Source: Ascidia mentula | Lineage: Eukaryota; Chordata; Ascidiacea; Phlebobranchia; Ascidiidae | Length of the DNA stretch: 64,000 nucleotides | Direction of reading: 5' to 3' | Assembly: GCA_947561715.1 (NCBI GenBank) | Contig: OX387203.1 | Span: 13,888,001 to 13,952,000 of the forward strand | In this document: one piece after another, positions 16,306-61,795 of the stretch | How positions within the stretch are numbered: the first letter of the stretch is position 1 | Layout of the letters: every line of letters begins with the position of its first letter | Position numbers and translations under genes: made by a program | The notes under the pieces: model-generated | Database searches by the model: none | The model's input: only the letters and a program-made list of their open reading frames with translations | Told to the model about the DNA's origin: nothing

Positions 16306-16860
16306 CTGCGCTGCCAGGTCCTCGAGTCCGGGTGAAGTAAACTACTTGTAAAACCAGCAATAATTGCAAATATTCGCACTGGAGATGGTGTAAAGTGCTA
16401 ATTTTTGTTGGTTTGTGCTGCAGAAAATGTAGTAATGTGAATAACAGTGGTAAGTTGCCTTGAAAATGTACTTTATTGTTGGTTTTTCAAACTTTGGTGA
16501 GCCAACTTTTGCTATGGGAGTAAAAATAGGCTGGAAAAGACTTATTTTTTGCACCATGGATAAGTAATATCTCATTTTGTTATATTTTTCAACAGGTTTA
16601 ATGCATATATTTGATAATTTTGTACATGACTGTTCAGTATAAGCTGCCATATCAAAAAGTGGCATGAAATCCAAGTCACAATCCTAAGGATCATGTGAAA
16701 ACAACTAAAGAATCTCTTCTGATCATGAAGTGCTTTGGAACTGATGCAGTGACATCATGGTAGCCGAAAACCCCCTATTTTACCCCCTATCCTATTTTTT
16801 CCTCGATTCCTAGGAGTTAGCAGGGTCAAACAAACTCACTCAATTGGCACTGGCACAACA
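16306..16860. other. No gene recognised
   Basis: An open minus-strand stretch (16674-16342) has no recognisable domain. The remainder is AT-rich with pyrimidine runs near 16770-16800. Confidence 0.4.
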
Positions 16861-16866
16861 TTTATT
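16861..16866 (-). terminator. Polyadenylation signal for the HUH/SF3 gene
   Basis: TTTATT on the plus strand is AATAAA on the minus strand, 57 bases past the stop codon at 16923. This is a usual distance for a eukaryotic 3' end and suggests the gene is or was transcribed in the host. Confidence 0.5.
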
Positions 16867-16922
16867 AAAAATTTAACACAACATCAACAAAAATATATAT
16901 ACACGTAAGGCTGTGCCTGTGC

Positions 16923-18753
16923 CTAATTAGACACGTCAATCCCGGATTCACGCATTATCTGCGTGAGCATGTCGTCATCCTCCTTCATGCTTTCTTCCCA
17001 CTCTTTCCCACTGGAGAAGTCTTCAAATGCACATAGGCATTGACAATCCATCCCTTGATGTTCGCATTTGCTGTCATCTATGGGTTTTGCCTTCATCACC
17101 CTCTCTAGAAATGATGGCCTCTTCGGACTTTTCGGGACTTCTAACAAACTGTCCCTCTTTGGACTCTTCTTCTTCGGCATATATGGGTTATCCTCCTCGT
17201 CCGTCAGGTCTTCAAAGACCGGGAGGCGGCGCTTCAAGGGCGCGCCACCTTTCCCTCTTTTCGGACTGTCACTAATGTGACACTTATGACACATCAACTG
17301 ATTGCCATGTTTGCATGCAGGTGCCACATCAGCGTTGAAGATTCCTTGCCCATGTACTGGTTCGCTACCCGCGACGGTTTCGTTTTCCATGTCTTCTTCC
17401 TCGCTGTCGCTTGTTTCAACTGACATCTGGTCCACGAAGTCGCGTATATAGTCGGCGATCAGACATAGGTCTTCATCGATGGGGAGCCCTGCCTCAATTT
17501 CCTCGGCAACGTCTTTTGCCAACTGAATGACTATGTCATCCGTTACGCTGCCGAGTACTTTTTTCTCAGGGCCCGTTGATGGTGATTCCGCGTCCGCTGG
17601 CCAGTGTGCTTCAACGAAGCGACGCTCCATTGGGGCCTTGTCCTGCAGGCTTGATAGGCGAGTTATGGGGTCAGACAGGTTGGTGGTAATGAAGCAACAA
17701 GTAGCCTTGTTGTCCTGTCTGTCCCCGTGGGTCTTGGCACTCCAATTGTTGTGGTACATGAACTTGATGGCGCTGATCAGCTTGTCGTCGTTAAACAGGG
17801 CTGAACCAGCGTCATCAATTTTCAAGACCTTATGCTTGAATCGGAGTGCCATCTGACCCACACCCGCACTATCATTCGTCATCACGCTGGCGACCTCTGG
17901 CGGAAAAAGGAATTTCCCTAATAGGGTCTTCCCTTTACCCGCTTCCCCATGTAGAACGATATGGGGAGCCAACGTGATGCCGTCTTCTTCTTGATTTCTT
18001 GCTTCTAGAGCAGCCTGCACCAGGATGATCATCAGTTCTTTATGGTTCAGCTTGATACCATTCCATCGGATGTTTTTGGCTTGTGCTAGTATGTCTTTGA
18101 TGATCTTGACTGCTTCTTCTACCTTCCATGGTTTGCTTTTCGTGGCCATTTTCCTGAACGCCTTCTTCATTTTTCGGGACTGGCGCCCGAACACCGCTGT
18201 TTGATATGCGCGTTTTGCCAGTAATTCGGGATACGAGAAGTCGCGCTCGAAAAGCTTTGCCTTGAAAGCATTCATCGACGGTTTGCCGTCGAACGTCTTC
18301 GCTACTTCCTCGGCGATTTCCGCATAATGCCATTTTTGGCCGTTCGCGAACTTTGTTTTCTTGACTTCTGCTGCAAGTTCTGGTGGAATTTCGTTGGACA
18401 GGTGCTTGTACATGTATTGTATGTAAGCCGCAAGGTCCTTCACTGTGCCCAAGTAGGTAATGCTGATTCCTAGATCTCTTAACCGTTTGCTGACGGTCTT
18501 TTTGGGTACTGGGTTGCCCGTTTTCGAAGAGCCGGAGCTCTTCGATGTGAAGAATGCTGTTGCTGTTGCCCCTCTCCTGGGGCCCGATGTATATGGTTGC
18601 ATGTGGGCTCTGCCACACCCCTGGCTTGCCAGTCTCTGTGGTGAAGGCCCACTTTCTGCCTTTTTGCGGGTCTTGCACACTCTCGCTCGAAGTTTCTCTT
18701 CTCGGACTCTTCGATGTCCCGGCGGAATTGCCTGCGCTTTCGCATTGAATCAC
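16923..18753 (-). CDS. HUH endonuclease plus SF3 helicase, CRESS-type Rep-like, one frame change
   Basis: A replication-initiator-like protein. The main frame (18680-16923) has 585 codons. The first HUH motifs lie in the neighbouring frame: 'KWAFTT' (about 18654-18637, motif 1) and 'ILHIEE' (about 18555-18538, motif 2 with one His where CRESS Reps have HLQ). The frames meet, one base apart, near 18517. In the main frame 'YIQYMYKH' (residues 86-93) is the Tyr motif 3 with Lys. The helicase follows: Walker A 'GEAGKGKT' (245-252), Walker B 'VLKIDD' (285-290), B' region around 'THGDRQDNK' (317-325) and motif C 'FITTN' (330-334). The C-terminal 250 residues are longer than in CRESS viruses: an acidic stretch, a Cys/His cluster 'CKHG---CHKCH' (456-468) and three SPKR words. 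GC is clearly higher than the flanks. It could be an endogenised virus gene or a mobile element. The frame change is a 1-base indel, a frameshift signal or a missed intron. Confidence 0.7.
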
Positions 18754-18759
18754 AGTTTC

Positions 18760-22045: not shown

Positions 22046-22102
22046 ACAACATTACAGCGATGGAGAAGCTGTTGCTTAGCTTCTCCATCGCTGTAATGTT
22101 GA
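22046..22102. repeat. Perfect 24-bp inverted repeat with 7-base loop
   Basis: Arms 22047-22070 and 22078-22101 (CAACATTACAGCGATGGAGA and on) are exact reverse complements. The tight loop and lack of mismatch suggest recent origin. Nothing marks it as a transcription terminator in this eukaryotic setting. Confidence 0.8.
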
Positions 22103-22535: not shown

Positions 22536-22812
22536 CTGAAGTTAAACAATACATACAATTGGATTGTCTATCTGCCAACACAGGGTACAAGCATTTCTGT
22601 TTTCCAATGATGTTGGGTACCTAAAAAAGTCTTTTACGTAAATTGTACGTCACTAAAATGACGTAGACTAAAAGCTTTTCTACGTCTTTCGTGTACGTCA
22701 AATCGATACCAATGCACGCCTGTTCAACATCAAGAAAATGAGTTAATGCAAAGCACTCGACAAGAATGGTGGTGTCACAATATATTCAAGAATATTAAAT
22801 CACATAGGCAAG

Positions 22813-23891
22813 CTAGGCAGAGGAAAATGAAGAATTAAATGAATCCTCTGCAGAGTCACCCTTGCCTCCTTTTCGTGCAGGAGCATGCTGAAGATGTTCA
22901 GCAGCCCTGCGAGTAAATTCTGCCTCGCTAAGATCTGGTTGGTTGCGGCGTATGCTTTCTAAACATGTTCAAAAGAAAGCCCATGTCAAAAGCACCACTT
23001 TACAGTTAAATGTAGCTGTACAGCAAATTATGTGTAAGTAATGTAACAAGACTCCTGTTTGAAGGTAATGCAAAACCTGCTTGGAAGAAACGTCAGTCAA
23101 AAACATGCAACAACACCACTTACCTAATATTACTGCAAAAAATGGTGAATCTGCAAAAGCAAACTTCCCATGGTTTTCTCTAGAGCATTTGGAAACAGTC
23201 TGGAAATAAAACCTATGTTTACAATATAAAAAGACACCATGGCAGTTACAATTACTTACGTTTTTATTGTTTTGTTAACAGATTCACGGTTGGTGTAACC
23301 TATTAATCTTAACTGTGCAACCTGAAATTTCAAAATGTATATACCTTGAGAAGATTACTTTTGAAGTTAACTGACAAGGAAAACAAGTGCATGTGCTTCT
23401 ACTGACAATGTCAAGTTCTAGCTGTATTGCACATTATCTTGTTGGAATAATTAAATTCGATGACCCAGAAATTAAACATACATTTTTGGCATCTGCTGAA
23501 GGAATAATTTTCGACTGACAGAATCTTGACTGCTTTTTAATTTATTGTTATATATCATACCAGTTTCTGTCTATGCTCTGGGTCCTCTATTTTGCCTGCA
23601 AGCTCATACACCTCGTCTAAAGTGTGCAGTTGATTCTGTATATACATGAACTGGTCCGACTGGGATGCATCTCTAGAATTACTTGATTTTATACTTTCCT
23701 TTTTGTCGAGCAACATGCTGAACACTCTCTTTTGAAATCCTAGACATAAAATGACATGTTGCGTTTAGTAAAGTAACACACCTGTACATTGTACACACTT
23801 AGATACATTCAAATGATTTATGCAACTTACGTTCCTCCGACATTGGATATGACCTCTTTCTTTTCTGATGTCTCAACGCTGGCAGTTCCAT
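22813..23891 (-). CDS. Five-exon gene, 167-residue protein of unknown family
   Basis: A consistent gene model can be read on the minus strand. Exon 1 is 23891-23831 (ATG), exon 2 23739-23561, exon 3 23321-23260, exon 4 23179-23124, exon 5 22958-22813 (TAG). All four introns have GT and AG ends. Exon lengths 61, 179, 62, 56 and 146 sum to exactly 168 codons with no internal stop. The N-terminus is basic ('RHQKRKRSYP', a likely nuclear signal). The middle is helical ('QLHTLDEVYELAGK'). The C-terminal half has 'HGKFAFADSPFFAVI', 'RRNQPDLSEAEFTRRAAEHL' and a Ser-rich tail. I recognise no Pfam domain; the pattern could be a small DNA-binding or adaptor protein, of host or transposon origin. It lies 3' of the broken Rep gene on the same strand. 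An acceptor-like TTTATTTAG just before the ATG suggests a leader intron. Confidence 0.65.
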
Positions 23892-24023
23892 TTCTAAATA
23901 AAGTATATAAATTAGGTGCAATATCTATATGTGCAAATGCAAAACAATATGTGAATTGTACTGTACAATCTTGACTTTGGCATTTACACAGCTTTACATG
24001 TTATTCATAATATTGTAACTTCT

Positions 24024-25078
24024 TTAGAGGGAAATGTCTCCCATTTCGTTCTTTATGCTGTACCATGTGACTATGTAGTCTAGGAGATTCTTGCAGCAGT
24101 CGGCGATCTCTATGCCATCACGAACATCTCTCATGAGGTCTTCAATCAGTCTGTCTAGTAATTCGTACGTCATATCGACGTTTATAACTATTTGGTCTTT
24201 GATTTGTGGGCCTTCTGCTTCTTCTGGCCAGTATGCCGTAACGAATCTTCGTTCTAATGGTTGCGTCGATTGAAGTCTGGACATCCTTTGTTAACAAAGG
24301 CAAGTGTAGGCTTATTATCTTGCCTATCGCCGTGAGTCTTCGCTGACCAATGGGCGTGAAACATATATTTCACGGCGCTGACTAGCTGGTCGGAGCCAAA
24401 AAATGCTTCGCCAGCGTCGTCTATCTTCAACACTTTATGTTGGAACCTTAGCGCCATCTGTCCAACACCTGCGCTGTCATTGGTCAGTATGGACGCTACT
24501 TCAGGAGGGAATAGGAGTTGACCTAAGAGGGTCTTCCCTTTTCCTGCTGATCCATGTAATAGCACGTGTGGGGCCCGCAATATACCGTCGGTCACGGTAT
24601 CGCGGGCCTCCAACGCGGCTTGTATCAGGATCACTTTGAGGTCTTGTACTGTTAGCCTCTTGCCGTTCCAGCGTATGTCTTTTGCCTCGTCCACTATGGA
24701 GGGCTTCATCAACCTCTAAAGGCTTTGCGATCTGTTTCGCCATACGCTCTGCAACTTTGTCGAACATCTTCCTCTTGCGGCCGTAGGTGGCACCATTGTA
24801 GGCTCGTTTAGCTAGCTGTGCGGTACGTTGCTTGACCCTTTCTCCAGGGGTCCTGCATAGATCGTAACGGACGGGGTCTCTTGGATCGCGCTGAGAGACG
24901 TGAAGTCTGTCGTAAACGCCCATCTCCTGCTCCTCATTGGCCCGCTCTTGCTCGTATCGTTGTTGTTGCCTGACATATTCCAAATGTTTTCGCTTTGTAA
25001 AATCCGCGGGAGTTTCACAGTCCCTAATCTTACCAAATTCTCTACTATCTGTATAATATGATAGCCTGTAATATCCAT
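24024..25078 (-). pseudogene. Second HUH/SF3 Rep-like gene, internally deleted and frame-broken
   Basis: A diverged paralog of the gene at 16.9-18.75 kb. The first frame (to about 24860) has 'RRWAFTTDF' (HUH motif 1) and 'VTIYAGPLEKG'. A deletion then removes the segments that hold motifs 2 and 3 in the other copy, joining directly to 'QLAKRAYNGATYGRK'. After a frame change near 24715 the helicase follows with Walker A 'GSAGKGKT', Walker B 'VLKIDD' and 'THGDRQDNK'. The motif C segment is missing and a further frame change leads to 'QPLERRFVTAYWPEEAEGP' and a stop at 24024. The long acidic Cys/His tail of the other copy is absent. It cannot make a working initiator. GC content is above that of the flanks. 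It lies between a His-Cys box nuclease gene and a spliced gene, all on the same strand. Confidence 0.75.
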
Positions 25079-25228
25079 CTGTTGATTTTAATGAACAAAA
25101 CATAAAATGCATGCAAACTCGAAGAAATCAAGAACGTAAATGAATAACATAAAATATAAGCGGTAATATATTGTGGCGGAAAGAATAGCATGTAGCCTGC
25201 ATGACGATTGGTATTATTTAACCTACCA

Positions 25229-25576
25229 TCATTCTAAAATACAGTCATGGTAGCTGCCATGTCCACTGCAAGTGCCGTGGATCCGGCACCGTCGTCGAGA
25301 CATATTTATGCGCCTCGGTTCAAGACTTAGATGTCCTGGTTTGACGCACAAGCTTTTGTGGCAGCGGTGGCTCACGTCAAGGAATTTTGGTAATTTTTTC
25401 ATAGTTCCCTCAACAAAAATCATGTAAGCTACACGGTGCACGGCAAACTTTTTTCCTGCGAATTGTATTTCCCCATACCCAGCACCTGTTTTGCCCCCCT
25501 TCCAAGACTTACAACTTCCATGTGTTTTGGTGCGGTTTAAAATCTTTGATTTTGCTAACTTAATTTTATCATTCAT
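25229..25576 (-). CDS. I-PpoI-like His-Cys box (His-Me finger) endonuclease
   Basis: An intact 115-codon frame from ATG (25576) to TGA. Residues: C22 before the 'GYGEIQFAGKKFAVHRVAY' strand pair, then 'VSHRCHKSLCVKPGHL' with H70, C72, C77 and H82, N91 in 'RRINMS', and C97, C103, H106, C112. In I-PpoI the catalytic His98 and Asn119 and the zinc ligands C100, C105, H110 and C125, C132, H134, C138 have almost the same spacing: His to Cys 2, Cys to Cys 5, Cys to His 5, His to Asn 9, Asn to Cys 6. All active-site and zinc residues can thus be paired, so it is probably an active metal-dependent DNA nuclease. Homing endonucleases of this class usually sit in rDNA introns of protists; a free-standing copy in animal DNA, next to a Rep gene (117 bases away, same strand), is unusual. 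It could be a mobile-element gene. Confidence 0.75.
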   Translation of the reverse strand: MNDKIKLAKSKILNRTKTHGSCKSWKGGKTGAGYGEIQFAGKKFAVHRVAYMIFVEGTMKKLPKFLDVSHRCHKSLCVKPGHLSLEPRRINMSRRRCRIHGTCSGHGSYHDCILE

Positions 25577-25599
25577 TTTTTACTTAATTATAACTTACT

Positions 25600-26245
25600 A
25601 CATACACTGAAACGTATTTTAGGAAAACACTTAATTTTATTGTTTTTTTTTTATATATTTGTTGCTACAATATAATGTCTGCCAACAGTTAACAAAAAAG
25701 GCGCACTGTTCTTTGACTAGTCTGTAGGCCTATAAAGTACACCTATGACAAACATATTCATGATATTTTCAGCTTCTACTTAATATTTTAATTGCAAAAC
25801 TAGCGAAGACAAGAAATCGCCATTCCTTTTTGCTGAGGCGAATGTGACGTCATTGGAAGGAGGCGCGACAAAGCAGTTTTATTTTGATAAGGAAAGGCGC
25901 CTTATTTTAAAAAATACGGAACCGTAAAGTTGTTGGAAGGTGTTCAAACACCCAGCAATATAAAATAAATTTACAAAAATCCTCGGTTTGCAGAAGTTGG
26001 TGCAATGTACATGCAAATTTTAAGTAACCACGAGAATAACATTAAACAGGACTGCTGTTATAATAAAAAATTATTTATGGTAATTTCTTAGGAAAAGAAA
26101 ATTAGAAGTTGTAGCGACTATTGCGCATTTTGCAAACCAAGACATGCGTCTCGCTTTTATGCAAGAATTTCCCTTAAGTGAAAAAACGAACATCGTCGTA
26201 TTTTGCATGTACACTTTCATCATTTTGAATTTCTTTCTCTTTCTG
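25600..26245. other. No gene recognised
   Basis: AT-rich sequence upstream of the His-Cys box gene. A purine-rich, GC-richer patch at 25.85-25.93 kb has no frame of note. The 26.07-26.24 kb part belongs to a repeat whose echo (CTTTCATCATTTTGAATT) recurs at 28.98 kb. Confidence 0.4.
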
Positions 26246-26430
26246 CAAAACATAGAAGAAAATGTAAATGAAAAGCTGTTAAGTTTACTTGTAAGTACTA
26301 CTCTATAAGGCAATATACACTTACGCCAGTTTCAATTTCTTTGTCTCCCTACAAAACATAGAAGAAAATGTAAATGAAAAGCTGTTAAGTTTACTTGTAA
26401 GTACTACTCTATAATGCAATATACACGTAT
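26246..26430. repeat. Tandem duplication, period 106 bp
   Basis: Two units starting at 26246 and 26352 share CATAGAAGAAAATGTAAATG and AAGCTGTTAAGTTTACTTGT with very few changes. The second unit breaks off near 26430. Confidence 0.8.
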
Positions 26431-26499
26431 ATTATTTTTTTTTATACTATGCCCCTGCAAAACATAAAAGTATGTGAAATTAGATGAATCATATAAAAA

Positions 26500-29039: not shown

Positions 29040-30870
29040 TTAACTTCTCAAAGAAAGAGGCCCAATTGATGACATATTAACATTCCGCTGCAATGCCAGT
29101 TTAGCTTTAATGATCGCATGTTTTTCAAGAACTTGCTGGGTGTTGATAAAATATGTTCCCCCACATCCTTGTCTAAGCTTTCCAAATGCTTTTTCTAACG
29201 GGTCAGTAGAAAATTGTCCCAGCATGACAAAGTCATGTGTTGATTGCAAAAGAAGTTTTGTAATAGAAATGAGACCTTGGCATGTATGATAAAAAGCAGA
29301 TGAAGTATCACCAGATATTTGCTTTACCCCGACTTTACCAATAGAACTCATGCTTCTTACATATTCTGCACAACCTATTGTCATCACATGAACTCATCAC
29401 TGCTCTTCTAGGATCTCTGAACCGGATGTTAACACCATGCTTTCTCACATTGACTACTTTCCAGAATTTGACAAACATTTTCAGAAACTTAATGGTGCCT
29501 GCATTATCAGAACCAGCAACTGCACTGTGAGTTTCCAATGCGACTATAGTCTCATCACAAAATACCCTTAAACAGGTTTGCACATTTTGGCGCTCAATAG
29601 GCCGAGGATACACAGAAACATAATTTAGCTTTGACTGAGTAACTAAAGAACTCAACTCAGCTTTAAATAGTGTCCTCAAGTCAGACCATCTAGCAACACA
29701 TTCTTCACCTTCCTCATCAGTAAATTTAATTTCTCCACACTTTCAGTTAGCCAATTATTTCTTATCAAAAGATGAACTTTTTTGTCCTTTGTTTTGTTTT
29801 AAACTTGTCAAAAAAAGCTTGGTTTGCTCTGTTGCCATCACACTCATTTGGCATTTCTGAAGTTGATCAATCAGTATGGTAATTTGTTCAAACTGAAATT
29901 GAGCAGTCAACTTATACACTGGAATCATTTTAATCAAAAACTGTTCCCCCATGATAAGAAAGAGCTGCTTTTACGTATATCTCGTCCACCATAACAATCA
30001 CATTCCTTACTCAAGTCATTTGTGTTGCCAATTTTGGATGTTATTCTGGTCAGCGTTTTAGTACAAGGGAGCTTATGATCTTGTCTAAACTTTTAATATG
30101 TTGATCTTGACGACGAAAAATATTCAAATGCTCTGACAAATGCCTCAGTGGAATATACAGGTTTTCCAATGGACTGTGCAGCTGCCATTGAATTTCCGTA
30201 GTCAGTGAAAACTTTGCTGAAATGACTTTCCTCAACATTGCTTAGGTAATTAACTGCCTCTTCTATTCTTGACCATCTGTCCAATGTGAAAAGTTTGTTG
30301 CTAGCCAAAGATGGAATAGAAATTTTTATGCCAAGGTGGAAACATTCATGCACAAAATTCTTGAAAACTTTGATGACAAACAAAGGTATGCCGGCTACAA
30401 TTTTTTTTGACTGGATAATGAGAGAATCATCACTTTCAAATGAAATTGTAGAAACAGAAAAGGAATGTTTGTTTAAAGCTTCAACCAAATCATTCTCATG
30501 TCACCAGGTAATTTGTCCTGTTTTGTGAATTCATCGAGTTCATCAACTACAACATTTCTTTGGCCTGACATGGCTTTTTTTGTGGTTCTAGGTATGCTGG
30601 AGGTGGATGGAATTAAACTTTTAGGGACACATGCAAAAACTGAAGGTGCAAATGTTGGGCGGTACCTGCCATAGGACAAAACTTTTTATAACCTTGCGGC
30701 CAGTGTCTTTCGCATACAACAGTGTCTGGTCTGTCTGGAATATTGTCCCTGGGTATAGCATGTAGCCATCTCAACCTCTCTTCTCTCTCTCGTGGTAATC
30801 GAAAAACTGCAGTTTTATCTCCTGCATCATATCCACTTCTACAACCTGTCACACAACACTTTCTACCCAT
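29040..30870 (-). pseudogene. P-element/THAP9-like transposase, broken
   Basis: Begins with ATG at 30870 and a THAP zinc finger: 'CCVTGCRSGYDAGDKTAVFR' then 'VVCERHWP' (C2CH ligands all present). A one-base change in an A run near 30685 shifts into the frame with 'YGRYRPTFAPSVFACVPKSL'. Further breaks lead to 30488-30093 (helical, RNase-H-like region start), 29952-29755, and 29679-29335, which contains 'FLKMFVKFWKVVNVRKHG'. The end (29387-29040) has 'LGQFSTDPLEKAFGKLRQG' and 'GGTYFINTQQVLEKHAI', diagnostic of the P-element C-terminus. About five frames are used, so it is dead. P elements cut and paste with 31-bp terminal repeats in flies; none could be found here. A second C-terminal remnant lies at 61.3-61.8 kb on the same strand. 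Confidence 0.85.
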
Positions 30871-54544: not shown

Positions 54545-55140
54545 ATGTGTTTGGAGGAAATTCTTGAGGTCGCTTGTTTAGCCAGCCCGGCCCTTTTTAG
54601 GGCCACTATTTCGTACGTTTTAGTAGAGGTTAGCGACGTAGCCGGGCCCGATCTGTGCAAGCTAAAGATCCGAGAATTTGGAAGTGGACGCCCGTTTCAA
54701 TCCCGGGCTGAAGCGTCCCGAAATCTTAACGTTGCTGCGGCAACATAACATTCGTTGGCGGACCTTCCTAGAAGGTCTGTTGCAGTTCTCTAACGGCAGA
54801 GTAAAGTTTTACTGCCCCACCAAGGATAAGGCGCGTGAATTCGCCATGACACTTCGAGCGACCGGAAAGCCGGTTTACGCAACCGCGAGATGTGAAGATG
54901 AAGAATGTGTTACACTTACCAAGGTCCCCCCGCGTATACCAATGCCGCGCCCCAAACTCTCAGTCTAGAATAGATCGAATTTACCTCTCCCTTTCCTTAT
55001 CTCCCAATAATCATCTTTTTACTCCTTGCCCCTTTTCGGACCATGACTCAGTTTCGGTCTCTCTTAACCTTATCTCTTCTCCACCCAGAGGCCGTGGCAC
55101 ATGGAAAAATAATACTAAAACTCTTAATGGCTAACACTTA
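54545..55140 (+). pseudogene. Tx1-like LINE: ORF1 N-terminal part joined to endonuclease end
   Basis: 54678-54950 has 'VDARFNPGLKRPEILTLLRQ' and 'NGRVKFYCPTKDKAREFAMT', closely similar to 55.87-56.08 kb ('VEARFNPGLKKLDLYKLL'). This is an RRM-like ORF1 start. From about 54968 the frame jumps to 'SRIDRIYLSLSLS', 'SDHDSVSVSLNL' and 'GRGTWKNNTKTLN', the end of an AP endonuclease (SDHD carries the catalytic Asp-His). ORF1's end and most of the endonuclease are deleted. After 55140 degenerate ORF2 sequence continues to about 55640. Confidence 0.7.
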
Positions 55141-55640
55141 AATTTAAATTTGCCTAAACAATCCCGAGAAGAAACTTACACCCTACAGCAACAACTCGAA
55201 ACTTTATATTCTAATCAAAACCTTCCAATACCGGACCCCTCTAATTTATTCGCTAAAATTCCCCTCAAATTAATTCCGGACCAACACATTGAAACCTTAT
55301 GAATCCCCATCACGCAACATGAAATTAGAAAAACTCTTTCCCTCTGGCAAAACCCCAGACCGTCGGGGCCGACCTCACCCAAGCTCTTAACTTCTCATAT
55401 TTTAATTCTGTTTCACCCCTTCAGAATACAACCTTGAACATCTTACCCTTATCTTAAAAAAAATGACTCCCGGCCAATCTCTCTTTTAAATACGGACCTT
55501 AAAATTATTCACAAGCTTCTAAATTTCATACTCAAACCCTTCATTCCCGAAATTCTTTCTTCAAATCAATTCGCTACCCCGGCTCTTCCACCACCGACGC
55601 AACTTCTCTCCTACGCGATCTTCACCATCACGCTTCCTCC
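55141..55640 (+). pseudogene. Degenerate LINE ORF2 sequence before the reverse transcriptase
   Basis: G-poor, C-rich sequence that continues the LINE above. Small frames only. 'ISTDASPTLLRDLHHHASSI'-like readings near 55595-55650 echo 'TSDATTLLRDLYSHASSINS' at 56475 of the next copy, so part of the RT region is present but broken by many stops. Confidence 0.45.
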
Positions 55641-55659
55641 ATCAATTCGTCTTAGATTT

Positions 55660-57940
55660 CTGTTTATGATCTGTTGTGACAGACTTATTGAGGCCACTGA
55701 GCAAAGCCAGCCCAGCCCTTGTAAGGGCTGCTTTTGTTTTGAGAGGAGAAGTGAGCTGCCAGTAGCCACCCCGTGCGTTATTTGTGGAGACGCACAAAAA
55801 AATTTGCTTAACTACGCCCAGTAGTTTCCCGGCCTGCTGTTCCGGCCGGAAATGTGCAACCGACCCAAATCTTGATGTTGAAGCCCGTTTCAACCCAGGG
55901 CTTAAGAAGCTAGATCTTTATAAGCTGCTAAAACAGCTTAAAGGCGTAATTCCCTACCCAAACGGCAAAGTTCTGTTCAACTGCGCCTCCGCCGAAAAAG
56001 CTAAGGAGCTTGCTGCCACTATTAGAGCAAGTGGCAAGGCAGACTACGCCAACGCTCATTGCGATGACGAGATCCGGGTGTTTCTGTCTAAAGTTCACCC
56101 GCGAAGTAAAATGTCGGCATTACTAAACTTTATGTCGAAGTACGCCCCAGTCAAAAAAGGGTGGAAGGTGTATGACGACGAGAGCGTATATGGTGGTAAG
56201 CGGGTGATTATCATGAGGGATTCTGTATTGGCCCAAAATCATATCCCCGAGCGCCTGCGTCTGGGCAATAAAACAATCGAAGTTACGTATGAAGGGCAAC
56301 TTCACATACCAAAACGCATACACCCCCTTGGAATTCAATTTAGGCCACATCACAATCATTCACAAGAAAAACGACCCCACCCTTTTGACCAATTTCCGCC
56401 CCATTACCTACTTAACACCGACCTCAAAATCCTAAACCTTCGCATCAAGCCCTTTATTTCGTTAATTCTCTCCACCTCAGACGCAACCACACTTCTACGC
56501 GATTTATATTCTCATGCTTCTTCAATTAATTCGTTCTTCGTTTCTCTTGATTTAAAAAAGCCTTTGACTCTATTTCCTTCCCATGGTCACTCCTTCAATT
56601 AAATCTTAAACGTTTCCCCCTCTCTTTACTCAATATCTTTCTGCTCTTCACTCTAGCGCCCACTCCCGGGTCTTCGTCAATGGCTTCGCCACAAGGGATT
56701 TTACCATCAGGAGAGGTGTCAGACAAGGAGACCCCCTTAGTCTGAACCTCTTCCTTATTGCTTTAGACCCGTTTCCCTCTTATCATTTCGACCCCTGTGC
56801 CATGCCGCAATATTCCCAAGGCAATTGCTTACGCCGATGACGTCACCCTCGTGGTGGCGCATCGGCAGTCCCTCTGTAACTCCCTGTCATTAATAAATTT
56901 TCTAAATTCACCCGGTCTTAAACTGAACCCCGCCAAAACAGAAGCAATTGCCATCCTCCACCCTCTCGTAGACGACCCCTATTAGAATCAAATTAAATGG
57001 AACCCAGATATTCTCTCTAAAACTCTACTTTTACCTGAAATTTCGTACTTGGAAAAACTTACCCCCTACCACCTCAGCAACGAGAGCGGGTCGACGGCAT
57101 TGTGGCAAGCTTTGTCGGAGGCCCAAACGTACCAACTTTGCCCATCAACATCCTGGCAGCCCGCCGTGACCTTGGTGGTTGCGGCGCGGCAAATCTCCCC
57201 CTCTATGCTAATCTGTCCCTTCTCTTTTCTATTAAAAATTATTACAAACACTGCATTTTGGACACCCCAACAACCCCCCAACTTTCCCTCTTTGAATACA
57301 ACCTCGGCCTCCCCTTATCCAATTTATACAACTTTAGAATACGAAACAACCTCCCCCACGCCACATCACCCTCCTCTCACTATCAATACATTCTCTCCCT
57401 TATCAATTCCTTTAAACCCTCCGAACAAGAATTACTCTGTCCCAATTCAAAACCCCTTTATACCCGCATAACAAACCATTCCCAACACCCATTCACGCAC
57501 ACACATACACCACCCCATTTTTTCTCAATTACCTCAAAACCTTCAATTACCCCCAATGTCATCTATGTAATTACCCCATGGAAACCTTCAGTCACCTCTT
57601 TCATTCCTGTCCCTCGATACAACCAATTCTATCCCTCGTCAAAAACACCCTCAACTCCCTCCTCAACAACACCTTCACATATTTAACTTTCCCTAAAACC
57701 CCCCTGTCAGACTACCCTTACTCCTCAACCATTGTAGCCTTATTAAACACGTCCCTCATCCACACCATCTGGAAGACCCGTAACCGTATCAAACATGACC
57801 CCCGTCCTTTACTTAATATACCCCAACACCTGACCCGATCCATCAAACAGACTTTACACTTTCGCCTTACTTTACAAAGGAGCAGGTCTAACGCCGATCT
57901 TGAAGGTGTCTTGGCCGACGTCGTCCAACACCTAAATTAA
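55660..57940 (+). pseudogene. Tx1-like LINE: ORF1 start, reverse transcriptase and C-terminus
   Basis: A Cys-rich start near 55.66-55.80 kb ('PCVICGDAQ') leads to 'VEARFNPGLKKLDLYKLL', 'PNGKVLFNCASAEKAKELAA' and 'APVKKGWKVYDDESVYGGKR' up to 56.3 kb (ORF1). Then comes, without endonuclease, the reverse transcriptase: 'SINSFFVSLDLKKP' (block with catalytic Asp), 'VRQGDPLSLNLFLIALDP', and 'AIAYADDVTLVV' near 56826 (YADD). 57.05-57.94 kb holds the C-terminal part with 'HTIWKTRNRIKHDPRPLLN', ending 'LEGVLADVVQHLN'. It uses all three frames. The coding strand is markedly G-poor, a feature of this family here. Confidence 0.75.
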
Positions 57941-58107
57941 AACCTATTCCCCGGGCAACCAACTCACTCATCATTTAATTTTCGTCGTCTGCAATTCTGT
58001 AAAAAAAAATTTTTCCCGTGCATCGTTTCGTCGTCCGCAATTGTGTAATTTTTGTAAAACCACCATTATCACCCACCACCTGTTTGTTTATTTTTGCGTA
58101 TACAATG

Positions 58108-59165
58108 CCGTCGTTTTTGCGCATATGTACTCTCAATGTTAACGGCCTAGGCCAGGCAGCAGGCACCCAAGAGGAGGGCCCTGTTTCAATACCTTTCCTC
58201 TTTGAACTTTGACCTTTATTGCTTACAAGAAACTCACTCTACTCCCCAAACCGAATCCCTCTGGAAGTCCAAATGGACATCCGGCCCAATCCTCTTAAAC
58301 TCGGCACCTCTGAAGGGCTCTGCCCGAGGAGGTGTCGCTGTTCTTCTAAACACCTCCAATCTTCGAATTCGTAAATCCGTTTCCGACTCTGACATTTCAA
58401 CCATGACCCACACCTTTCACTTAGTTAATATATACGCACCCTCCGGCACAAAAAATACATATTCAATGACAAATTCTTCGAGTCTCTCTTCCCCTATTTC
58501 TCCTCGTCCCACCCCATAGCATTCGCCGGTGATTTTCATTGTGTAGTCGACCCAGCCCTGGACAAATACCCCCTAATAGCCAACCGACAACCAAGTTATT
58601 CCCTCGTTAATTTAATATCCACATTCGACCCACAAGACGCCTTTTGCACCCTTCACCCAACTCTCCGTCAATACTCCTTTCGCGCCCCAAGGACCCAGTC
58701 ATTCATAGACAGAATATATATATCTTCCAAAAACCAATTCCAAAACATCATTCCTTTCCCCTTGTCCATTTTTCCAACACCTTGGACTACTGGGTAATCC
58801 TGAAACTTAAATACCTTGCCCAAACCCATTCGAAACTCCTGGTCCAACAATCGCGACACAAAACCCAAACCTAACAATTCGAAAAGTAGCGCCAAAATCT
58901 TAACGAAAACCCATGACCTGAAAATTTTGATAAATAAGGATCTTAACATTTCGAAATCCCGCACCTCTATTCTGAAATCCCTTTCTTCCGACCCTCAATT
59001 TAAAAACATATCAGACAAATCCCCTTATTCCAAATAAACACCGTTCCGCCGCCGCACTCCCCTACTTGAATTACAGGACAACCACGGCCTCCTTTCTACC
59101 CTAAAAGAGCTTATAACGCACACCCGACAATTTTTTAACACACTTCATGCAGATCAACAATTACC
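58108..59165 (+). pseudogene. Tx1-like LINE ORF2 N-terminus, AP endonuclease
   Basis: From ATG 58108 'MPSFLRICTLNVNGLGQAAG' starts the APE-type endonuclease. After a frame slip come 'LYCLQETHSTP' (catalytic Glu), 'GGVAVLLNTSNLRI', 'FHLVNIYAPSG', then 'AFAGDFHCVVDPALD' (GDFN-like with His instead of Asn), 'FIDRIYISS' and a stretch resembling the linker 'LKYLAQTHSKLL'. It ends near 59.16 kb. No reverse transcriptase follows. The changed GDFN motif and the frame slips mark it as dead. A short 5' UTR-like segment (57.95-58.1 kb) contains two copies of CGTCGTC(C/T)GCAATT. Confidence 0.75.
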
Positions 59166-61302: not shown

Positions 61303-61795
61303 CTATAAACTATTGGCTTTTCGAACAATGTATCCAGAAATGTACAACACCATGGCTTGGATTTCATCAAATGATACTTTTTTCTGCCAAACTATTAAAC
61401 AATTCAATATCCGAATCAGACCATTTGTAGCTGCACAATGACATAACAACATTCCGCTGCAATGCCAGTTTAGCTTTAATAATCGCATGTTTTTCGAGAA
61501 CTTGCTGGGTGTTGATAAAATATGTTCCCCCTCGTCTAAGCTTTCCAAATGCTTTTTCTAGTGGGTCAGTAGAAAATTGTCCAAGTTGATTGCAAAATAA
61601 ACTTTGTAATAGAAATAAGACCTTTACATGTATGATACATGTTAATAAACTTAATGGGGCCTGCATTATCTGCACTCTGTGTTTCCAATGCGACTACAGT
61701 CCCACAAAATACCCTTTTACAGGTTTGCACATTTGGGCGCTCAATAGGTCAAGGATACACACAAACATAATTCAGCTTTAAATAGTGTCCTCAAG
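61303..61795 (-). pseudogene. P-element/THAP9-like transposase C-terminus, second copy
   Basis: The minus strand shows 'LGQFSTDPLEKAFGKLR' and 'GGTYFINTQQVLEKHAIIKA', nearly as at 29.1 kb, then 'CSYKWSDSDIELFNSL' and in the next frame 'FDEIQAMVLYISGYIVRKA', the segment that follows in P-element relatives. Farther up (61.65-61.79 kb) are short matches to 29.5-29.65 kb (reading 'ALETQS', 'NVQTC'). It is more deleted than the copy at 29-30.9 kb but extends further at the C-terminal side. Confidence 0.8.

Follow-up and report, generated by a model that had tools for sequence, protein, structure and literature searches.

The Rep Gene Copy in the Window

The window analyzed here is a stretch of 64,000 nucleotides from the genome of the ascidian Ascidia mentula (GCA_947561715.1, contig OX387203.1, positions 13,888,001 to 13,952,000 of the forward strand). 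It is part of contig C71 (19.9 Mb) in an assembly of 196 Mb and 79 contigs. The minus strand of the window carries a chromosomal copy of a replication initiator (Rep) gene. It is of a viral type combining an HUH endonuclease and a superfamily 3 (SF3) helicase, as the original prediction had supposed. Very probably, this is a 5′-truncated and frame-broken Rep copy of a parvovirus-like single-stranded DNA (ssDNA) virus that was integrated many times. The following features were distinguished:

16758..18754 (−): integrated fragment, the Rep region and the 3′ end of the element, delimited by shared end motifs; the gene of the capsid-like protein (VP) and the left hairpin are missing
16923..18680 (−): Rep frame of 585 codons with motif III, the SF3 helicase, and the tail, from the list of open reading frames (ORFs) and motif reading
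18040..18753 (−): second ORF, corresponding to the Rep frame (including motif I) up to the break and to an overlapping accessory frame beyond it, by comparison with the frames of the copy at locus L029
18640..18651 (−): HUH motif I, WAFT, in ORF 18040..18753 and thus in another frame than the 585-codon ORF
18549..18567 (−): frame-break zone, in which HUH motif II is lost; the close copy L029 has HHHG here
18405..18416 (−): HUH motif III, YMYK, in the 585-codon frame
17925..17948 (−): Walker A, GEAGKGKT, in the 585-codon frame
17808..17825 (−): Walker B, LKIDDA, in the 585-codon frame
17679..17690 (−): SF3 motif C, ITTN, in the 585-codon frame
17616..17627 (−): ERRF, an arginine-finger-like motif, in the 585-codon frame
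16926..17615 (−): 230-residue tail following ERRF, in which acidic stretches, Cys/His clusters, and SPKR motifs (three) are present
16861..16866 (−): AATAAA polyadenylation signal
24042..25112 (−): second Rep fragment, shorter, more decayed, and in several frames, from ORFs and sequence matches

The stop-free run of 585 codons is real, and the chance of such a run is about 6e-13 under equal codon use. However, the gene end placed at 18753 in the original prediction joins two different frames. The expected order of motifs is retained in part: motif III, Walker A, Walker B, and motif C are in one frame, whereas motif I lies elsewhere and motif II is unreadable. Walker A, Walker B, and motif C have the arrangement and fold of SF3 helicases. 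The Cys/His clusters and SPKR motifs of the tail were found as described, in a tail of 230 residues. The elevated GC content (0.50 vs. 0.38–0.39 in the flanks), the polyadenylation signal, and the additional copy at 24–25.1 kb were also confirmed. Damage in the window copy affects the nuclease part, and the helicase part has stayed open. With its motif II broken and its 5′ side cut off near 18755, this copy is not the intact gene that it was taken for. The similarity of other copies to the window copy stops near 18745–18758 and 16757–16769.

Copies Across the Genome

A search of the genome revealed at least 93 Rep matches (75 of 102 candidates scored) and at least 34 VP matches (39 of 39 scored), both counts being lower bounds. 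When the matches were grouped at 1.5 kb, Rep and/or VP pieces were located at no fewer than 51 places, including 47 with Rep, 19 with VP, and 15 with both. Contigs C71 and C52 contain 23 places each, C1 contains four, and C2 contains one; thus, 46 of the 51 places are on two contigs. Contamination, which would have undone the original prediction, is unlikely because the copies are on chromosome-scale contigs among transposons.

The closest copy found, L029, shows 95.3% DNA identity to the window copy over 1998 columns. The flanks of the two copies have two short repeats in common and are otherwise different; therefore, these are separate insertions. The sister copies show varied decay. At locus L033 (C52:7893500-7903400), several extra pieces of the 3′ end of the element are present near the Rep copy, accompanied by direct repeats of 0.6 kb and inverted repeats of 1.9 kb.

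The second Rep fragment of the window is part of a stretch of about 3.5 kb (22636–26128), which also includes an HNH-type ORF and is repeated in locus L022 (C71, 14.00 Mb) with 91–99% identity. In view of this duplication, the 22.6–26.1 kb segment was rejected as a border of the element. The HNH-type ORF (25229–25576, minus strand, 115 codons) matches PF05551, the zinc-binding loop of homing endonuclease, with an E-value of 2.2e-12. It was rejected as a part of the element because, among 20 loci examined, the interval at 25.2–25.6 kb had matches only in L022 and L023.

Anatomy of the Fuller Copies

In the fuller copies, the element is about 3.8 kb in length and comprises a left hairpin, a capsid-like ORF with a phospholipase A2 (PLA2) domain, and then Rep on the same strand. 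Loci L029, L030, and the L031/L032 pair extend beyond the left break of the window copy and contain, on one strand, the palindrome, a VP ORF of 481–501 codons, and Rep. The latter is an HUH-SF3 protein of about 550–590 residues with an overlapping frame. The left palindrome forms a long stem tipped with small arms and folds far more stably than shuffled sequences (z −18.4 in L030 and −21.7 in L032); the hairpin is T-shaped, like that of adeno-associated virus (AAV). In L032, two elements meet head-to-head at the palindrome.

The PLA2 domain (PF08398) was found in all four VP ORFs of this first lineage that were scanned and is followed by a Gly-rich stretch. The likeness of VP to AAV-type VP1 is confined to the N-terminal part, from residue 19 to at most residue 157 (best E-value 1.8e-12). 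Most of the PDB structures matched by VP are those of AAV; 3j1q carries the name AAV-DJ.

The frame overlapping Rep begins upstream of it and has 262 codons in L029 and 333 codons in L031. Its identity is 50–71% among L029, L031, and L038 and just 18–27% in L017, L025, and the window copy at 24.5–25.1 kb, so that conservation of this frame is clear among close copies only. As for the rates at codon positions along Rep, second-position changes exceed third-position ones in residues 1–33 in one of the two pairs, hinting only weakly at a constraint on the overlapping frame near the Rep start.

A second lineage is represented by L025, in which an ORF of 570 codons is followed by a Rep frame of 582 codons. 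The identity of this Rep to the window frame is 31% over residues 10–355, and relatives of the L025 Rep with at least 70% identity are present at three further places. On the left, there is a palindrome of about 330 bases (z −44.8 vs. shuffles). The Pfam scan gave no PLA2 match for the first ORF; its alignment to the VP profile has a probability of 85 and an E-value of 6e-6, and a comparison of the L025 VP with PDB sequences gave nothing useful. Thus, the second lineage repeats the hairpin–VP–Rep plan without PLA2.

Rep Motifs and Public Relatives

In relatives, HUH motifs I–III and the SF3 motifs are within one frame. An alignment of eight Rep sequences contains motif I in seven rows, YxxK in all eight, and HxHG in five, the exceptions being L025, L010, and the window copy. 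Among public proteins, P0001 and P0002 are both 41% identical to the window frame, of which the matches cover 79% and 67%, respectively, and P0003 is 44% identical to P0002. In all three, a single frame contains WAFT, HxHG, YMYK, and the SF3 motifs; P0003 stops before RRF. Relatives of VP were also found in public contigs, P0004 (42%) and P0005 (37%), both with the PLA2 domain.

Comparisons of Rep with NCBIfam, PHROGs, and PDB sequences revealed no convincing match. A tblastn search of PLSDB with one Rep as a query revealed no relative, and Foldseek with a weak Rep model gave nothing at an E-value of 0.001 or better. The search for PF01057 throughout the genome gave no match and is uninformative, since the control matched 0 of 14 genomes. 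Equally uninformative is the absence of CRESS (circular Rep-encoding ssDNA) Rep from the VIA list, whose helicases are of the SF3/D5 class.

Selection and Age of the Copies

The ratio of nonsynonymous to synonymous substitutions (dN/dS) was estimated for each set against one query, using stretches of at least 100 aligned columns with no more than 99.5% identity. The check among copies suggested in the original prediction gave dN/dS values of 0.03–0.25 where measurable: 0.03–0.21 in the 10 of 15 VP comparisons and 0.05–0.25 in the 11 of 28 Rep comparisons that yielded a ratio. In the remaining comparisons of both proteins, synonymous sites were saturated. L031 and L032 overlap; hence, one locus was counted twice in the VP and Rep sets alike.

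The window copy and L029 were compared over 438 codons; of the 26 codon differences counted, 17 affect the third position (binomial P 0.0008), and dN/dS is 0.11 and 0.25. This close pair differs as expected of viruses selected before integration; selection inside the genome is another possibility. Given the 95.3% identity to L029 and this share of third positions, the window copy is not very old, in agreement with the recent origin initially proposed.

Domestication of a CRESS virus gene by the host, with its maintenance by selection, would fit the long open frame, the polyadenylation signal, and the dN/dS relative to L029. However, motif II of the window copy is broken and its start region is lost, sister copies are in varied decay, and the signal of selection is equally present in the capsid-like gene, which makes domestication very improbable. 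The host-selected gene of the original prediction is not needed because the signal of selection at the protein level is common to many copies and to the capsid-like gene, which is what selection acting on a virus prior to integration would produce.

The distribution of copies suits a transposable element with captured viral genes, spreading in the genome by its own Rep: there are about 50 places concentrated on two contigs, and some transposons are driven by HUH enzymes. At the same time, the low dN/dS of the PLA2 capsid-like gene is unexpected for a transposon, the palindrome in L029 and L030 is seen at the left end only, and there are diverged lineages among the copies, many comparisons showing saturation at synonymous sites. 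We consider this explanation unlikely, though less so than domestication.

Other Features of the Window

Two ORFs on the minus strand (29040–29387 and 61367–61675) have the common stretch GQFSTDPLEKAFGKLR and, by eye, belong to a repeated transposase-type family. A 106-base unit is present in three tandem copies or part-copies at 26207–26479. Positions 22047–22101 form a perfect inverted repeat with arms of 24 bases and a spacing of 7 bases. GC skew is strong at 55001–59000, from −0.25 to −0.54 per kilobase.

Origin of the Element

Repeated endogenization of a linear ssDNA virus replicating by hairpin priming is, with good confidence, the best reading of the gene content and order, the left hairpin, the head-to-head pair, the selection at the protein level, and the copy number. 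The virus lineage is probably undescribed. The DNA in the virion would have been linear. Rep may have nicked DNA near the hairpin by means of the motif III tyrosine and remained attached, its SF3 motor may have opened the hairpin stem, and the hairpin would have primed copying in the manner of the rolling-hairpin replication described for parvoviruses in passages of PMC11357303. Virus particles would have been formed, and PLA2 may have helped them escape endosomes, a role presented in part of PMC10267136. Truncated fragments would then have been captured repeatedly in germ-line chromosomes, the integration being presumably incidental.

Several observations weigh against a viral origin of this kind. 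Clustering of the copies on a few megabases could equally suit a mobile element. No free virus was seen, and scanning IMG/VR with Rep and VP revealed no relative. The profile search proposed in the original prediction was run with eight Rep sequences, and no Pfam family, including Parvo_NS1 (PF01057), exceeded the threshold. VP has no database match outside the PLA2 region, and its AlphaFold model (predicted local distance difference test score, pLDDT, of 30) is too weak to judge the capsid fold. No full palindrome was seen at the right end, the right ends of the copies halting near a shared motif. Finally, the arms of the head-to-head pair in L032 are only about 75% identical in DNA; thus, the pair combines different strains rather than being a simple replication dimer.

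The element resembles Parvoviridae (Parvovirinae such as AAV, and Densovirinae) in the terminal hairpin, whose left end is seen in L030, L032, and L025, in PLA2 at the N terminus of the capsid-like protein with the subsequent Gly-rich stretch (lineage one), and in an HUH-SF3 Rep of about 550–590 residues within an element of nearly 3.8 kb. PLA2 in the unique region of VP1 (VP1u) is typical of Parvovirinae and Densovirinae but not universal. The virus may have been a true but highly divergent parvovirus, whose Rep is an NS1 drifted beyond recognition and whose gene order was rearranged; we would put this at somewhat below even chances. All eight Rep sequences lack a Parvo_NS1 match, and motif III has the form YxxK in all eight rows, whereas that of parvoviruses is YxxxK; the capsid fold of the element is putative. 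In addition, the order along one strand is VP and then Rep in L029, L030, L031/L032, and L025, whereas a passage of PMC11357303 gives a left-hand nonstructural (NS) cassette and a right-hand VP for all parvoviruses.

CRESS-DNA viruses (Cressdnaviricota) share with the element the order and form of WAFT, HxHG, YxxK, Walker A, Walker B with DDA, and TTN. CRESS Reps have about 300 residues, and the Rep of the element is longer. Unlike these viruses, the element has a hairpin end, no evident circle, and a PLA2 capsid-like protein. A conserved nonanucleotide origin was not found: NANTATTAC is absent from the four lineage-one stretches searched (L029, L030, and the Rep regions of L033 and L036). In L025, there are two NANTATTAC matches, one of which is the exact TAGTATTAC within the VP ORF; circularity is not visible in integrated DNA. 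The assignment to a plain CRESS virus Rep proved too narrow and was set aside on the basis of the hairpin end and the PLA2 capsid-like gene of the fuller copies. The YxxK form of motif III in CRESS Reps is given in a passage of PMC6668415.

Bidnaviridae, described in part of PMC4061559 as a mosaic parvovirus offshoot with an SF3 helicase and a parvovirus-like capsid, are similar to the element in the SF3 helicase and the parvovirus-like mosaic character. According to the same passages, bidnaviruses carry PolB and are without the HUH nuclease, hairpins, and PLA2, whereas the element has HUH motifs, a hairpin, and PLA2. PolB in place of HUH was not found; the remaining ORFs listed in the fuller copies are short and unassigned, and no PolB-directed scan was made of any ORF. 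Endogenous parvoviral elements of invertebrates, described for arthropods in part of PMC6631224, are likewise germ-line copies with varied decay, but the arthropod ones derive, as stated there, from recognized parvovirus lineages.

The candidates for placement are an intermediate, a recombinant chimera, or a divergent true parvovirus, and the evidence picks none of them. We suggest only tentatively, and as a rather doubtful proposal, that the copies are fossils of an undescribed family-level ssDNA lineage between CRESS-DNA viruses and parvoviruses, with hairpin telomeres, a PLA2 capsid protein, a CRESS-type HUH-SF3 Rep, and inverted gene order. This combination of a CRESS-style Rep, a hairpin end, and a PLA2 capsid-like gene was not found described in the portions of the open-licence PMC literature consulted. 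A mixed lineage is plausible, since parvoviruses, with their linear genomes, were proposed in a passage of PMC6668415 to have evolved directly from circular CRESS-DNA viruses.

A CRESS-style Rep with a parvovirus-style end and entry domain provides testable material on the switch from a circle-replicating to a hairpin-replicating Rep. If true, the placement between the two groups would document either an intermediate stage or an independent second emergence of hairpin-primed replication. Moreover, the presence in one genome of two lineages with the same VP–Rep plan, one with PLA2 and the other without it, bears on the gain or loss of this domain.
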